Positions 28,371 through 43,424 of a stretch of 64,000 nt of DNA are shown here, piece by piece. Origin of the DNA: a candidate division WOR-3 bacterium (lineage in GTDB: Bacteria > Hydrothermota > UBA3072); NCBI GenBank assembly GCA_039804165.1, contig JBDRZZ010000002.1, forward strand, positions 62,001 through 126,000. Reading direction: 5' to 3'. The translations under genes and the position numbers were made by a program. Position 1 is the first letter of the stretch; each line of letters starts with the position of its first letter. The notes below the pieces were generated by a model. That model saw only the letters and a program-made list of their open reading frames with translations. It was not told the DNA's origin and searched no databases.

Positions 28371-31076
28371 TTATTTTTTCAAAAAGATGAGTTTTCCTTC
28401 CTTTTTAAAGGAACCTATACTAAGTCTATAAATATAAATTCCACTAGGAAGTAGCTTACCTTTTATATCTTTTCCATCCCAGGAAAAAGTATAGGTTCCT
28501 GGAGAAAGGTTTTTATCAATAAATGTCTTCACTAAGTTCCCATAAATATTATAAATTTTTAACTCTATTTTATCTATCCTCTCAGGTATCCAAAATCTAA
28601 TGTTTGTAAATTCGTTAAAGGGATTTGGAGTGGCAAGTACCCAAGGAGAGTTCTTTTTAAGTTCTTGCTCTTTTTCCGCAGAATATTGGGTCTTTACACA
28701 GAAAAGATAAGAAGAGATTTCACCGGAGAAGCTCTCTGTCTTATTTATCGTTCCTGATGTTGCATCTAAGGCAACCACATAAATAAAATGGAACCCAAAG
28801 GTTAAAGAATCACTCAATCCTATTTCCCAACTTACAGATGGGGTTCCTTCTCCAGAAGTTACCGCTGCTTCTTGCCAATAACCCTGAGTGGTCTCTAATT
28901 GATAAAAGATTTTTGTTATATTAGAATTAATAGGAGCTTTATTGTTTATAGAACTTCCAGTAAATATAGGAAGATTAGTAATTACCTCATCATTAGGGAA
29001 AGGATCGATTGTGGTAACAAGAGGAGAGGATTCTATCTTTTCTTCTTCTATAACTGTTAAATTATTACTCCCATAATTAGCAACATAAATTCTATTATTT
29101 TTAGAATTTATTTCTATTGCAATAGGACCTACCCAGGAAGGGCAGGTTGTTGTAGAGTTTGTTACCCCATCCACAACTGTTAAATTATCACTCCCAAAGT
29201 TTGCAACATATATTTTATTTGTTTTTAGATTTACTTTTACATCTATAGGTAGATTCCCTACATTAATAGTGGTTGTGCTTTTTGTTTCTCCATCAATGAT
29301 TGTTAAGTCATCGCTTCCAGAATTTGCAACATAAATTTTGTTTGTGTTTGAATTCAGAGCTATTGCAGAGGGATTAACTCCCACTTGGACAGATGTTTTT
29401 TCAAAGGTTTCTCCGTCAATTATTGTTACATCATTACTTCCGGAATTTGCAACATAAATTTTGTTTGTAAGAACATTAAGAGCAATTCCTGTAGGATAAA
29501 TCCCCACATTTATAATCGAAGTTTCTTCTGTCTCTCCATCTATAATAGTTAAATTATCGCTTTCTCTATTTATAACATAAATTTTATTTGTATTTGGATT
29601 TATGGCTATCCCTCTAGGCTCATCTCCAACATTAATTGTGCTTGTATTATATGTTTCCCCATCAATCACTGTTAAGTTATCACTACCTCTATTTACCACA
29701 TAAATTTTATTTGTATTTGGATTTATAGCTATTAGAGAAGGGTTATCACCAACATTAATAGTGCTTGTATTATTTGTCTTCCCATCAATAACTGTTAAGT
29801 TGTCGCTCCCACTATTTGCCACATAAATTTTATTTGTATTTGGATTTACTGCAATTGCTATTGGTTTTTCTCCTACCTGAATACTTACTTTCTCATTTGT
29901 TTTCTCATCTATAACTATGACATTATTACTGAATATATTTGCAATATAGATCTTTTCTGTCTTGGGATTTATTCCTATAGCCACAGGATTATTTCCTGCC
30001 TCAACTGTTTTTGTAATTAAGTCTATGCCATCTATAATGCTTAAATCATCACTACTTGAATTTGCAATATAAATTTTATTCGTTAAAGGATTTATTCCAA
30101 CCGCCCAGGGGTTGTCTCCCACGTTTAATATATCTATTTCGTTTGTTTCCCCATTTATAACGGTCACTTCATCGCTTCCTGAGTTCACCACATAAATTTT
30201 GTTCGTAATTGGATTTACCCCAACCGCAGTAGGAGTCTTACCAACTTTTAAATTGATCGAGTTATTTGTCTCTCCATCAATTATTGTTAAATCGTTGCTT
30301 CCTTCATTTGTAACGTAAATCTTATTTGTGTTTGGATTTATTGCTATTGCAAAAGGATTAATCCCAGAGCTTATAGTGCTTGTGTGATTCGTTTCTCCAT
30401 CAATTATTGTTATGTTATGACTATAGTAATTCGCAACATAAATTTTATTTGTTACTGGATTTACACAAATTGATATAGGAGCTATCCCAACATTAATGGA
30501 AGTTGTATCATTTGTCTCTCCATCTATGACAGTTACATTATTGCTATAATAATTTGCAACGTAGATTTTATCCGTATTTGGATTCACTGCAATCGCACAA
30601 GGTTTTTCTCCAACCCCGATATTTATCTTATCATTTGTCTCTCCATCTATAATGGTTAGATCGTTACTATTTGAATTCGCAACATAGATTTTATTTGTTA
30701 TTGGATTTATAGCAATTGCTTCCGGAGCGTCTCCGACTTTAATATTAGTTATAGAATGAGTTTCTCCATCTACAACAGTTAAATTGTCACTCCCTTTATT
30801 TACCACATAAATTTTGTTAGACCTTAAATTCACTCCAATTGCAATAGGTCCATCTCCTGCATTTAGGGTTGTAGTCTTTCCACTTACTCCATCAAGAACC
30901 GTTATATTATCACTGTTATAGTTTGCTATATAAATTCTATTTGTCTTGTAATTCACACCTATTGCACAAGGTCTATCTCTTACTGGAATTACACCACTTA
31001 CCCAATCGCAATAAACACTCAAGGATAAAAGGAATAAAAAACAAAATAAAAAATTTTTAATATTTTTATAATTCAT
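28371..31076 (-). CDS. Secreted YVTN-type beta-propeller protein with FlgD-like sorting domain
   Basis: 901 residues. Signal peptide (about 1-23), then 16 repeats of 41 residues (residues 29-686) with the core NPNTNKIYVANSGSDNLTVI, typical of YVTN-family propellers; sixteen blades suggest two propellers. Residues 700-800 are an Ig-like region. The last 85 residues (PNPFNEFTNIRFWIP, then YNIYGNLVKTF and LPSGIYIYRL) form a FlgD-Ig-like C-terminal domain of the type used for secretion or cell-surface anchoring in FCB-group bacteria. Likely a surface or extracellular binding protein. Follows the archaemetzincin gene by 14 bases. Confidence 0.88.
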   Translation of the reverse strand: MNYKNIKNFLFCFLFLLSLSVYCDWVSGVIPVRDRPCAIGVNYKTNRIYIANYNSDNITVLDGVSGKTTTLNAGDGPIAIGVNLRSNKIYVVNKGSDNLTVVDGETHSITNIKVGDAPEAIAINPITNKIYVANSNSNDLTIIDGETNDKINIGVGEKPCAIAVNPNTDKIYVANYYSNNVTVIDGETNDTTSINVGIAPISICVNPVTNKIYVANYYSHNITIIDGETNHTSTISSGINPFAIAINPNTNKIYVTNEGSNDLTIIDGETNNSINLKVGKTPTAVGVNPITNKIYVVNSGSDEVTVINGETNEIDILNVGDNPWAVGINPLTNKIYIANSSSDDLSIIDGIDLITKTVEAGNNPVAIGINPKTEKIYIANIFSNNVIVIDEKTNEKVSIQVGEKPIAIAVNPNTNKIYVANSGSDNLTVIDGKTNNTSTINVGDNPSLIAINPNTNKIYVVNRGSDNLTVIDGETYNTSTINVGDEPRGIAINPNTNKIYVINRESDNLTIIDGETEETSIINVGIYPTGIALNVLTNKIYVANSGSNDVTIIDGETFEKTSVQVGVNPSAIALNSNTNKIYVANSGSDDLTIIDGETKSTTTINVGNLPIDVKVNLKTNKIYVANFGSDNLTVVDGVTNSTTTCPSWVGPIAIEINSKNNRIYVANYGSNNLTVIEEEKIESSPLVTTIDPFPNDEVITNLPIFTGSSINNKAPINSNITKIFYQLETTQGYWQEAAVTSGEGTPSVSWEIGLSDSLTFGFHFIYVVALDATSGTINKTESFSGEISSYLFCVKTQYSAEKEQELKKNSPWVLATPNPFNEFTNIRFWIPERIDKIELKIYNIYGNLVKTFIDKNLSPGTYTFSWDGKDIKGKLLPSGIYIYRLSIGSFKKEGKLIFLKK
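29019..30992 (-). repeat. Sixteen tandem 123-base coding repeats (YVTN blades)
   Basis: The 41-residue blades of the propeller gene are tandem DNA repeats of 123 bases. The first unit is slightly longer (43 residues). Units 10-14 are the most alike, indicating recent duplication or conversion. This is coding repetition, not a CRISPR array. Confidence 0.85.
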
Positions 31077-40406: not shown

Positions 40407-41693
40407 ATGAAAATTTTAATTTCCGCTTATGCCTGTAATCCCCTTGCTCCAGCAGATTCACACCCTGGAGAAGATGTAATTGGCTGGAATTTAATTAAAA
40501 AGATTAGCCATTCTTTTGAACTTGTAATAATAACTCGTGAATATAATAAGAAAAATTTAATAGAAGCAATTAAAAAAGAAAATCTTAATAATGTTGTATT
40601 TTATTATATAGACTTACCATCTTTACCTCAAATCATAAAAAACAATTATTTCGGCTACAGAGTCTGTTACTGGCTCTGGCAGATTAAGGCATTCCTACTT
40701 GCAAAAAAATTACATAAGAAATACAATTTTGATGCTTTTCATCAACTCACTTTTAATAACGACTGGATGCCGAGTTACATCGGAGCATATCTCGGTTCAC
40801 CTTTTATCTGGGGCCCTGTCGGCGGAGGACAGAAAGTTCCGAAAGTTTTTGGAAACCAATTGTGCCTAACGGATAGATTTAAAGAAATAACACGGAGTAT
40901 TTTTCAGGAATTCTGGAGACATACACCAACAAGAATAATCGGAATGAAAAAAGCAAAAGCAGTTCTTGTCTGTAATGAAGAAACAAGAAAAAAAGTAGAA
41001 AAGTTTAACAAAAATATCTATCAATTCCCGGTGAACGGCATCTCCCAGGAAGACCTGAAACCAGGGGTTAAGATTGGAAATTTGAGGATTAGGGAGGAAG
41101 GTATTGCTAAATCCCAAACCTTAAATCCTAAATCCTTCAAAATATTATTCGCTGGTCGTTTCGACCCGATTAAGGCAATTCCTCTTGGCTTACGAGCTTT
41201 TGCTCGTTTTAATAAAAAATATCCCGATTCTATTTTTGAAATTGTAGGAGACGGTCCAGAGAAAATAAGAATTGAAAAAGAAATAGATAAACTTGGAATT
41301 CGAAATAGTGTTAAGATAATTTCCTGGTTACCAAGAGAAGAATTGATTAAAAAAATGAGAGAATCGGATGTTTTTCTCTTTCCTTCTTTGCGTGACGGAG
41401 GTGGGGCTGTTGTTGTTGAGGCAATGGCGGTAGGGATTCCGGTTGTCTGCCTTGACCTTGCAGGACCCGGATTTCATATTAAAGATGAATGGGGAATAAA
41501 AATTGAGGCTCGTAACCCGGAATATGTAGTAGAAGAAATGGCAAAAGCCCTTGAGAAACTGTATCTTGACCCTGAATTAAGAATACAGATGGGAATTAAC
41601 GCCCGAAAACGAGCGGAAGAATACTACTTGTGGGACAAACTGGGAGGGAGGCTTCAAAAGATATACGAAGAAGCACTACATCTTAGGGATTAG
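40407..41693 (+). CDS. Glycosyltransferase, GT4 family, with in-frame palindrome insertion
   Basis: 428 residues. N-terminal half starts ILISAYACNPLAPADSHPGED and includes WGPVGGG; donor half has LFAGRFDPIKAI, EIVGDGPEK, VFLFPSLRDGGGAVVVEAMA. Between them, about residues 220-243 (VKIGNLRIREEGIAKSQTLNPKS) are encoded by a palindromic repeat and are foreign to the family; they fall in the linker between the two Rossmann domains, where an insertion may be tolerated. The last codons (LRD and stop) come from another copy of the same repeat. Confidence 0.85.
   Translation: MKILISAYACNPLAPADSHPGEDVIGWNLIKKISHSFELVIITREYNKKNLIEAIKKENLNNVVFYYIDLPSLPQIIKNNYFGYRVCYWLWQIKAFLLAKKLHKKYNFDAFHQLTFNNDWMPSYIGAYLGSPFIWGPVGGGQKVPKVFGNQLCLTDRFKEITRSIFQEFWRHTPTRIIGMKKAKAVLVCNEETRKKVEKFNKNIYQFPVNGISQEDLKPGVKIGNLRIREEGIAKSQTLNPKSFKILFAGRFDPIKAIPLGLRAFARFNKKYPDSIFEIVGDGPEKIRIEKEIDKLGIRNSVKIISWLPREELIKKMRESDVFLFPSLRDGGGAVVVEAMAVGIPVVCLDLAGPGFHIKDEWGIKIEARNPEYVVEEMAKALEKLYLDPELRIQMGINARKRAEEYYLWDKLGGRLQKIYEEALHLRD
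41065..41136. repeat. Palindromic repeat inserted inside a GT4 gene
   Basis: A G-rich left arm (GGATTAGGGAGG near 41086-41097) faces a C-rich right arm (AAATCCCAAACC and AAATCCTAAATCC, 41109-41135) around a short loop near 41100-41107. The arms are imperfect complements. The unit matches the arrays flanking the four-helix-bundle gene 550 bases downstream, so this looks like a short, gene-less copy of that element. It keeps the glycosyltransferase frame open. Confidence 0.65.
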
Positions 41694-41715
41694 GATTTGG
41701 GGGGTAGGATTTAGG
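41683..41715 (+). repeat. Left G-rich repeat array of the S23-like element
   Basis: Four to five units of the form GGATT(T)A/G, including a run of six G, on the plus strand. The first 11 bases encode the last three residues and the stop codon of the upstream glycosyltransferase. The G-runs could form a G-quadruplex. Confidence 0.6.
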
Positions 41716-41770
41716 AGAAAAAGATATAAGATTAGAATCTGGAGATTAGGAAAAGAAAAAAGAGGTAAAA

Positions 41771-42139
41771 ATGGAGAATTTTGAAGAACTTAAAGTATGG
41801 CAAGAAGCTCACAAGTTAGTTTTAGAAATCTATGAGATAACAAAAGATTTTCCTAAGGAGGAACGGTTCAGACTAACAGATCAGCTTTGTCGTGCGGCTA
41901 TTTCAATTCCATCTAATATTGTTGAAGGTCAATCGAAAAATACCACTAAAGAATACCTACAATCATTATATATTGCCAGAGGCTCTGTCGCTGAAACTAA
42001 ATATCATTTATTATTAGCAAAAGACTTAAAGTTTTTGAAATTTGAAGATTACCGAGAAATTATTGAAGGTTATAATAAAGTCGGAAAAATGTTAAATGGT
42101 TTGATATCAGCTTTAAAAAGGAAGGAAAAAAATGGCTAA
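41771..42139 (+). CDS. Four-helix-bundle protein, S23/IVP (Avd-like) family
   Basis: 122 residues beginning NFEELKVWQEAHKLVLEIYEITKDFP and continuing LTDQLCRAAISIPSNIVEG, the hallmark of the 23S rRNA intervening-sequence protein family (TIGR02436-like). The fold is a four-helix bundle that forms pentamers and is shared with Avd of diversity-generating retroelements; the molecular role is unknown. In Leptospira and Coxiella it is carried by insertions in 23S rRNA. Here it lies within a glycan operon inside an inverted-repeat element. RBS AGAGGT; the stop overlaps the next start by 8 bases. Confidence 0.85.
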   Translation: MENFEELKVWQEAHKLVLEIYEITKDFPKEERFRLTDQLCRAAISIPSNIVEGQSKNTTKEYLQSLYIARGSVAETKYHLLLAKDLKFLKFEDYREIIEGYNKVGKMLNGLISALKRKEKNG

Positions 42140-43424
42140 ATCCCAATCCCCAAATTCCGAATCCCAACCTCTAAATCCTAAATCCCAAATCCTAAATCCT
42201 GATTTATCTCCTTTATATAACGTGGTCATCGGAGCAATCTGGGTTCTCATCTGGGGGGCTTTTTCTTCTTACGGCCCAGGGTTTGTGTTGAGTGATATTT
42301 TTACGCAGAGTCTTTTTAACTTTTTTAATGGCATTAGGGCTTATTTCCCTTTTCTTGCGGTATTTTTAGCCCTTATTATATTCGCAGGAAAAAAGGAAAG
42401 GGCTGATTTAAAATTTAAAAAACCGACGTTGTTTCTTTTATTGTATGGTATTATTGGTCTTGTTTCCTCCCTTCTATCTACAAGGGGAATTAATGCGGTT
42501 TACTGGGCTCTTCTTTATATTTCAGTTGTTGTTACAGGTTTACTACTAACCGGCTATGGAGAATCTACCAGAGAAGCAAAAATTTTAGTGAATACCAACT
42601 GGATTATCGCATTTTTGTTCGTTTTTTATCTCTCTTTTGGACCTCTCCGTTCTTATATTATCGGTCGACCTCTGCCGCAGTTTTATATGTTCCCAGGTAA
42701 GGTTGCACGTATTACTCAGAATGGCGTGGGCCGCTTTGCTGGTGTTGCAGTTCTTGTTGCCTTTTCGCGTTTCAGGCAACTTCGAAGCAAAAGAAATCGA
42801 ATTTTATGGTTTCTTTTGCTCGGCTTTTCTCTCAATCTTCTATCTTTATGCCAGTCGAGAAGTGCTCTTTTGGGGTTCGCTGGAGGTGCTGCGATTATTC
42901 TTTTTTCCCTTCAGTTTCACTGGATTGCATTTTTTGCCCCTGTTTTTGCTCTTGTGATTTATCTTTCAGGATATTTGTGGGGGTCGAGAGGTTCCCTGGA
43001 TGAACTTTTTTCTCTTTCCGGGAGAGTCAAAGGACAGTGGTTGCCGGGTCTTCATTTATTCAAGAAATCTCCTTTTGTAGGTTACGGATTCCACGCAGAC
43101 CGTTTTATGTTGGAGGGAATCCATATGCATAACGCTTTCTTCCATTCGCTTGTTCAAAGTGGAATTCTCGGAACAATATTTTTTGTTTCCGCAATCTACG
43201 GAATATGGTTTATTGTTTTTAAGAAAAAATTAATTAGAAAATCCGCATATATAAAGAATCCCGAGAATATAATTCTTTCAGAATCTCTCGCAATTCTTAC
43301 ATTTTTTACCCTACGAAGTTTCTTTGAATCTACAGGAGCTTTTTACGGTGCGGACTTGTTTTTCCTTGTCCCTGCAATTATTTATATATACGCTTATTCG
43401 GAAAGGGAGGAGAATAAGAAATGA
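42132..43424 (+). CDS. O-antigen ligase/polymerase family membrane protein
   Basis: 430 residues with about ten to twelve membrane helices and, near residues 290-345, the extracytoplasmic loop with VGYGFHADR and HMHNAFFHSLVQSGILG typical of the Wzy_C/O-antigen ligase family. It would polymerise or ligate the surface glycan. Residues 2-23 derive from the adjacent repeat array and are very Ser/Asn/Pro-rich, unlike the family; the native start may have been lost or may be the internal region near LSPLYNVV. RBS AAGGAAGG before ATG 42132. Confidence 0.82.
   Translation: MAKSQSPNSESQPLNPKSQILNPDLSPLYNVVIGAIWVLIWGAFSSYGPGFVLSDIFTQSLFNFFNGIRAYFPFLAVFLALIIFAGKKERADLKFKKPTLFLLLYGIIGLVSSLLSTRGINAVYWALLYISVVVTGLLLTGYGESTREAKILVNTNWIIAFLFVFYLSFGPLRSYIIGRPLPQFYMFPGKVARITQNGVGRFAGVAVLVAFSRFRQLRSKRNRILWFLLLGFSLNLLSLCQSRSALLGFAGGAAIILFSLQFHWIAFFAPVFALVIYLSGYLWGSRGSLDELFSLSGRVKGQWLPGLHLFKKSPFVGYGFHADRFMLEGIHMHNAFFHSLVQSGILGTIFFVSAIYGIWFIVFKKKLIRKSAYIKNPENIILSESLAILTFFTLRSFFESTGAFYGADLFFLVPAIIYIYAYSEREENKK
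42137..42200 (-). repeat. Right C-rich repeat array of the S23-like element
   Basis: Eight or nine units of AAATCCY, some degenerate, in inverted orientation to the left array. They overlap the S23-like stop codon and encode residues 2-23 of the O-antigen ligase (KSQSPNSE, then LNPKSQILNP). Confidence 0.65.

Follow-up and report, generated by a model that had tools for sequence, protein, structure and literature searches.

S23/IVP genes between inverted heptamer arrays: a likely mobile cassette of operons

Among small bacterial proteins, S23/IVP (also called "four helix bundle protein") is very common, and no function is known for it. Many genomes also contain heptamer arrays, which were noticed long ago and lack an explanation. 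Here we describe a locus in which the two occur together. It lies in a 64,000-nucleotide stretch of DNA (defined as "the window") from a candidate division WOR-3 bacterium (assembly GCA_039804165.1, contig JBDRZZ010000002.1, positions 62,001 to 126,000), where an S23/IVP gene is enclosed by two heptamer arrays in opposite orientation. We consider it likely that the S23/IVP gene and its two inverted arrays constitute one mobile cassette of ~430–520 bp, with a mechanism, inferred here, in which S23 acts through the arrays.

The closest described system is the intervening sequence (IVS) of 23S rRNA genes in Leptospira and Coxiella, which shares the protein family, a length of ~430 nt and complementary ends (PMC4990558). 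These IVSs lie within rRNA helices and are removed by RNase III (PMC4990558), whereas S23 cassettes lie between protein or tRNA genes and have tandem arrays on both sides. In the Coxiella IVS, tandem GACAGAT heptamers of strain-variable copy number stand right before the S23 open reading frame (ORF) (PMC4990558). They were not recognised as element ends in that work; their position directly before the ORF connects the rRNA IVS with the element described here. The cassette would be the protein-operon counterpart of the S23-carrying IVS.

Heptamer repeats have also been reported in other bacteria: GGGAATC and GGGGAYT repeats in Xanthomonas and Nostoc, with 70–75 convergent pairs of arrays in Xanthomonas (PMC4692102), TAACTGA heptamers in Beggiatoaceae (PMC4679880) and paired arrays in Geobacter (PMC2700814). 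Like the cassette arms, these repeats have the same unit length, occur in few copies, are intergenic and often form convergent pairs. Unlike the arms, they are presented there as G-quadruplex, regulator-binding or unexplained sequences, and no link to S23/IVP was found in the searched passages of the three papers. Two further systems are comparable in part. Avd of diversity-generating retroelements (DGRs) is a homologous four-helix bundle, whereas S23 cassettes have no reverse transcriptase (RT), template repeat or variable repeat. Repetitive extragenic palindromes and their associated tyrosine transposases (REP/RAYT) likewise combine a gene with inverted ends and many dispersed gene-less copies of those ends; the S23 cassette differs in its protein, its tandem-array ends and its lack of a known catalytic domain. 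Coxiella IVS heptamers excepted, we found no publication describing an S23 cassette (subscription literature lay outside the search).

The S23 locus of the window

The 122-aa protein matches Pfam PF05635 (E = 3.4e-41, 140 bits, cut-off 33.8) and TIGR02436 (131.7, cut-off 24), which places it in the S23/IVP family by profile. The features of the locus are as follows.

41771–42139, plus strand: S23/IVP four-helix-bundle gene, 122 aa (PF05635, TIGR02436, AlphaFold2 (AF2) model)
41682–41717, plus strand: upstream arm, G-rich, ~4–5 units GGATTTR/GGATTAR (sequence and inverted alignment)
41728–41750, plus strand: degenerate extension of the upstream array, AGATTAGAATCTGGAGATTAGG (sequence)
42136–42200, plus strand: downstream arm, C-rich array CTAAATCCCAAATCC... 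(Tandem Repeats Finder, period 7)
41068–41137, plus strand: gene-less (solo) array pair with a GGATTTR-type unit (shared unit and sister species)
40407–41693, plus strand: group-1 glycosyltransferase (GT4-type), left neighbour (profile match; 71% DNA identity to the sister species)
42132–43424, plus strand: O-antigen ligase/polymerase-like protein (Wzy_C), right neighbour (Wzy_C score slightly under the Pfam gathering cut-off)

The upstream arm adjoins the glycosyltransferase (GT) gene and provides its stop codon, and the sequence directly 5′ of S23 is TTAGGGATTAGGATTTGGGGGGTAGGATTTAGG. The downstream arm starts at the S23 stop codon, from which the sequence reads CTAAATCCCAATCCCC...CTAAATCCTAAATCCCAAATCCTAAATCC, and its unit is the reverse complement of the upstream one (AAATCCY versus GGATTTR). 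Inverted alignment of the flanks (41661–41714 with 42171–42218) gave a score of 37, unmatched by 410 equally spaced 220-mer pairs slid over the window (0/410; maximum 34). Thus, the arrays of opposite orientation that a sequence-only reading of this DNA had reported on both sides of the gene are confirmed, and the polysaccharide-operon setting it proposed is right, as GT4-type glycosyltransferases and the Wzy_C-like protein flank S23. As a single heptamer, AAATCCY is no more frequent in the window than expected (59 observed, 60 expected); the unusual feature is its tandem arrangement. In the 1.96-Mb genome, AATCCYRAATCCYRAATCC (≤1 mismatch) occurs only at the window locus and at one gene-less place (C5:5644).

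Like the 23S rRNA IVS, the window element consists of an S23 ORF with complementary ends, and its predicted RNA folds with the arms paired (minimum free energy −118 kcal/mol, z −2.18). Its site is between the GT and Wzy genes and not in an rRNA helix. The first ~26 residues of the Wzy-like ORF (MAKSQSPNSESQPLNPKSQILNPD; 42132–42210) are translated downstream array, and the homologous ORF of the sister species can begin 3′ of its own array.

Among the relatives, only one sister species shares the GT/Wzy site. There, too, the site holds an S23, which has a different unit and is 35% identical to that of the window; S23s from elsewhere, as far as compared in the same alignment, are closer (39–46%). 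The neighbours are well kept between the two species (Wzy-like protein 73% identical, DNA of both neighbours 71–74%). Because S23 and unit diverge while the neighbours stay similar, the site has been filled by two different cassettes. The solo pair at 41068–41137 lies in frame within the glycosyltransferase linker. The sequence-only reading had not mentioned it. It is weak as a palindrome (score 16), and what assigns it is the unit it shares with the S23 arms, together with the sister species, where the same place (L050 9266–9332) is also occupied, by GACCGAT/GACTGAG units that differ from those of the window.

Cassette-specific arrays and their sites

To place this locus among others, 184 S23 genes from many phyla were compared with 207 control ORFs from the same loci. 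Beside 64 genes of the window's phylum there was a panel of 84 genes from named organisms and 31 from viral contigs. The S23 panels were gathered by S23 similarity and are phylogenetically unbalanced; the 84-gene panel includes the Candidate Phyla Radiation, Bacteroidota, Pseudomonadota, Desulfobacterota, Nitrospirota, Planctomycetota, Acidobacteriota, Cyanobacteria, Firmicutes, Methanophagales (archaea) and others. Within the window's phylum, S23 was present in 22 of 40 related genomes.

For the 64 phylum genes, the period-7 score of the flanks was 13.95 (5.3 in shuffles), with an excess that is sharp at period 7 and also seen at 8 and 14. The inverted flank alignment had a median of 27.5, compared with 17 for mismatched gene pairs (p = 8e-19), and the panel of named-organism and viral-contig genes shows the same array pattern. 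Overall, an inverted score of at least 27 was reached by 67% of S23 genes and 2.9% of the controls, period-7 arrays on both sides occurred in 31.5% and 2.4%, respectively, and 144 of the 184 S23 genes have an array on at least one side. The detection threshold drops arrays below about 3 units; those detected most often have 4–5. The gap between upstream array and start codon is ~17 nt, that between stop codon and downstream array ~4 nt. Upstream arms are G-rich in 84% of cases and downstream arms C-rich in 80%, and units on the upstream strand are enriched in the step AG (z = 6.6). In 111 of 171 cases both neighbours had the same strand as S23 (crude ORF calls), so the cassette appears to insert between co-transcribed genes, mostly in sense.

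Both arms of a cassette share one unit of period 7 or 8 in opposite orientation, and the unit differs between loci. The second S23 gene of the window's own genome (L002) has arrays of GCGGTTA/CCGCAAA; in related genomes we found TTCGGTW, GCTGTYA, GGTCAGT, GGGTGTA and GTTAGTGG, and other cassette-specific units include AGTCAGN and GGGAACA. The sequence-only reading had predicted many loci with the same termini and different neighbours. The architecture and the different neighbours were found, whereas the termini are not the same, since every cassette carries a unit of its own, which only closely related S23 proteins share. A terminus common to all elements is rejected, the AAATCCY triplet array being nearly confined to this locus in the genome. 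The likeness to telomeres is superficial, and G-quadruplexes fail as a general principle: GG is contained in only 43% of consensus units (AG in 74%), and most units are without G runs.

Unit and protein travel together. For 106 pairs of S23 genes with at least 62% identity and unrelated flanks, unit similarity averaged 25.5, compared with 11.7 when permuted (maximum 13.6 in 300 permutations); the pairs share loci and hence are not independent, a structure that the permutation preserves. Among pairs with unrelated flanks, similar units were found in 2–4% below 55% S23 identity, in 25% at 60–65%, in 63% at 65–75% and in 100% above 75%. Whether the period is 7 or 8 is also inherited together with the protein (0.70 versus 0.52). 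Unit and S23 protein thus move and evolve together, even between unrelated neighbourhoods.

The expectation of empty sites in relatives was borne out at five positions on cyanobacterial plasmids. At site 1, an integrase gene and a gene for a hypothetical protein (HP) are 3 nt apart in four relatives, and in Calothrix brevissima AGGGTGT-type arrays with S23 stand between the integrase and the next gene. At site 2 (TraM/HP), three records are empty and two are filled with GGGAACA arrays and S23; Nostoc ATCC 53789 has decayed arrays from which S23 is missing, and another record has a different array pair and no S23. Site 3, in a VirB10 operon, is filled in Trichormus and Scytonema, in copies that differ by two array units, and empty in Tolypothrix, with flanks 97.9% identical. 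A 5-bp direct repeat, GTAAT, borders the insert on both sides and occurs once in the empty site, and Nostoc C052 has a truncated S23 there. Site 4 (L296/L301) is a filled/empty pair without a direct repeat. Site 5 involves two paralogous A-B-C operons of one strain, with S23 in A/B of one and in B/C of the other, so that each operon serves as the empty site of the other; the A/B insertion is bounded by TTCTA, from which the empty site differs by one base.

The empty sites compared have neither gene nor arrays. The two cleanest filled/empty pairs are those with a 5-bp repeat, and the sites without one have altered flanks. Because empty states outnumber filled ones over the compared sites, insertion is the simpler reading. 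With many loci in different neighbourhoods and with these empty sites, the earlier suggestion that gene and arrays form one mobile element gains support.

Several other loci are of note. In a decayed cassette (L300 1352–1484), what is left is the upstream array plus the initial third of the S23 gene; the remainder and the 3′ arm are gone. L220 (1240–1580), as compared with L221, has an inserted pair of ATTTTGAA/TTCAAAAT arrays that encloses a GC-rich repeat but no S23, with a possible 3-bp duplication (GTC). Array copy number varies between near-identical cassettes, by two units in L214/L299 and by one in L215/L216. S23 cassettes L072, L073 and L081 lie between tRNA genes. On cyanobacterial plasmids, L210 and L211 are S23 cassettes with arrays inside type I-D (cas6/cas4) and type III-B (cas10/cmr3) operons, those of L210 being partly in direct orientation; 18 S23 genes in cas loci were previously discussed as having an associated function (PMC3936711). 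No S23 matches were found among annotated phage records, a PADLOC search gave no match, and an Rfam search of 20 S23 loci, mostly picked for weak arrays, returned tRNAs only and no rRNA insertion.

Solo arrays link S23 and heptamers at the level of whole genomes. They were counted on sampled S23-free stretches, ~1.27 Mb over the 40 genomes of the window's phylum (625 kb from 22 genomes with S23, 645 kb from 18 without). Solo period-7 arrays occurred at 80 per Mb in genomes with S23 and at 6.2 per Mb in those without (13-fold, p = 6e-4), a comparison uncorrected for phylogeny and with very uneven density (0 to 21 per 40 kb per genome). Most other repeat periods differ little between the two groups. 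One genome with eight S23 genes had 21 solo arrays in 40 kb, 8 of which match the unit of a resident S23, better than all 50 random S23 sets. Arrays without S23 had been named in advance as evidence against a link; they do occur, but their concentration in S23-carrying genomes supports the link at the genome level.

Outside the S23 locus, a large minus-strand ORF of the window (28371–31076) contains 123-bp repeat blocks at 29284–29507, 29529–29916 and 30420–30781, and probably encodes a repeat protein of beta-propeller type.

Proposed mechanism and alternatives

The AF2 model of the window S23 (predicted local distance difference test 95.8) is a predicted four-helix bundle, with 2GSC as its best match in the PDB (TM 0.91) and a TM of 0.80 to Avd (4DWL). 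S23 relatives 2GSC and 2RLD are deposited as five chains, and an X. campestris S23 homologue is cited in PMC4990558 as a homopentameric toroid. We propose that S23, as a pentameric ring, binds one strand of its own cassette's array in single-stranded form, RNA or DNA, with about one 7–8 nt unit to each subunit. This proposal draws on the 4–5 unit arrays, their strand bias, the AG step and the end of the array ~17 nt before the start codon. It would account for the regular spacing, the unit number and the strand bias, and for a unit that both arms share and that co-evolves with the protein. The trp RNA-binding attenuation protein (TRAP) is a ring whose subunits each bind one copy of a short RNA motif repeated at regular intervals; the proposed S23 ring would resemble it in working mode only, the proteins being unrelated. 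S23 on both arms would mark the cassette ends for mobilisation, and binding to the array may also regulate S23 translation. Solo arrays would be non-autonomous copies or remnants. The 5-bp repeats suggest a staggered-cut DNA route, in which a transposase or host factor would act in trans.

Several points weigh against a mobile cassette of this kind. The insertions are all inferred from comparison, and movement itself was never observed. The window's own cassette has no empty site, and the single sister species with this site has it filled. Of the sites compared, one has a clear 5-bp repeat, a second has one that is nearly clear, and the rest have none. At the thresholds used, roughly one S23 gene in five lacks a detectable array, L195 and L210 carry direct rather than inverted arrays, and 20 of 171 S23 genes look antisense by the crude ORF calls. 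The arms share units but scarcely unit order (0.816 versus 0.800 shuffled). Finally, no recombinase gene was found within the cassette, and we know of no nuclease or recombinase centre in the S23 fold, so the cassette fails to account for its own mobility.

A rather unlikely alternative, though the best of those considered, is a selfish element acting at the RNA level, whose arms form a transcript hairpin that RNase III cuts, so that the insert is harmless; the units would be by-products of slippage or arm-to-arm conversion, and S23 would have no role. The predicted RNA fold of the window element does pair the arms, cassettes are mostly sense in operons and also lie between tRNA genes, and RNase III is the enzyme that excises rRNA IVSs (PMC4990558). 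However, such an element predicts arms that match in unit order, which they barely do, and unit identity follows the S23 protein, which a protein-free model does not predict. Solo arrays also follow the presence of S23. Exact hairpin pairing is accordingly weak as a selected trait. Because the arms share the unit and hardly the order of its variants, the low order match speaks for recognition of a repeated motif over exact pairing alone.

It is improbable that Y1 (HUH, REP-type) transposases mobilise the cassette in trans, as RAYTs are thought to do for REP palindromes. Y1_Tnp is present in 21 of 22 genomes with S23 and in 5 of 18 without (Fisher p = 8e-6, phylogeny uncorrected), and Y1 genes are likewise intergenic with inverted ends, but this co-occurrence may merely mark insertion-tolerant genomes. 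The Y1 genes (L228–L266) have ends that are single-copy (GGGGTCAGGC...GCCTGACCCC) or REP-like; no heptamer arrays were found at the Y1 genes of these genomes, and no Y1 in the S23 cassettes. Genomes with Y1 and without S23 stay low in period-7 arrays (9 per Mb). HUH transposition is not expected to duplicate its target, whereas 5-bp repeats were seen. A Y1 transposase as owner of the arrays is not supported, given its other ends and the few arrays in genomes that have Y1 alone.

We give little credence to a retroelement in which S23, like Avd, partners an RT and the cassette moves by RNA copying. The S23 fold is that of Avd, matching DGR ribonucleoprotein structures (8UBx) and the PHROG Avd profile (3.5e-15), and insertion in transcripts is in the sense direction; the window S23 is under the NCBIfam Avd cut-off (51 versus 80 bits). 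Yet RVT_1 was found in only 1 of the 40 phylum genomes, 22 of which carry S23, and was absent from the window's own genome. A resident RT is therefore not required, and reverse transcription by one is rejected for this phylum.

Very unlikely, and largely refuted for the compared sites, is that pre-existing host repeats such as the Xanthomonas GGGAATC and Nostoc repeats came first and S23 inserts into them: gene-less arrays are frequent in genomes with S23 and in published genomes (PMC4692102, PMC4679880, PMC2700814), but the compared empty sites carry no arrays at all, related S23s bring the same unit into unrelated contexts, and genomes free of S23 have few arrays. Least probable of all is that S23 belongs to the ordinary host genes, has an untranslated region that is rich in repeats and evolves fast, and was deleted from the "empty" sites; some sites are common to several species (L152/L164/L168/L189), but empty is the majority state at the plasmid sites, the S23s at the GT/Wzy site are non-orthologous, the paralogous operons are reciprocal empty sites, and 5-bp repeats were seen.

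Implications for S23/IVP and heptamer repeats

We therefore return to the mobile cassette. In its broadest form, it would be a new class of mobile element, in which a non-catalytic S23 ring defines its own mobility via cassette-specific arrays, with solo arrays as non-autonomous dependants, and it would be the common source of many bacterial heptamer repeats (Xanthomonas, Nostoc, Beggiatoa, Geobacter) and of rRNA IVSs. We advance this extension tentatively and give it somewhat less than an even chance. If the cassette is real, S23/IVP and heptamer arrays would be parts of one widespread element, which would link two old puzzles, and hundreds of natural S23–unit pairs would provide a testable protein–array code. 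S23 genes in CRISPR-cas, conjugation and polysaccharide operons would then probably be passengers, and thus unfit for guilt-by-association.

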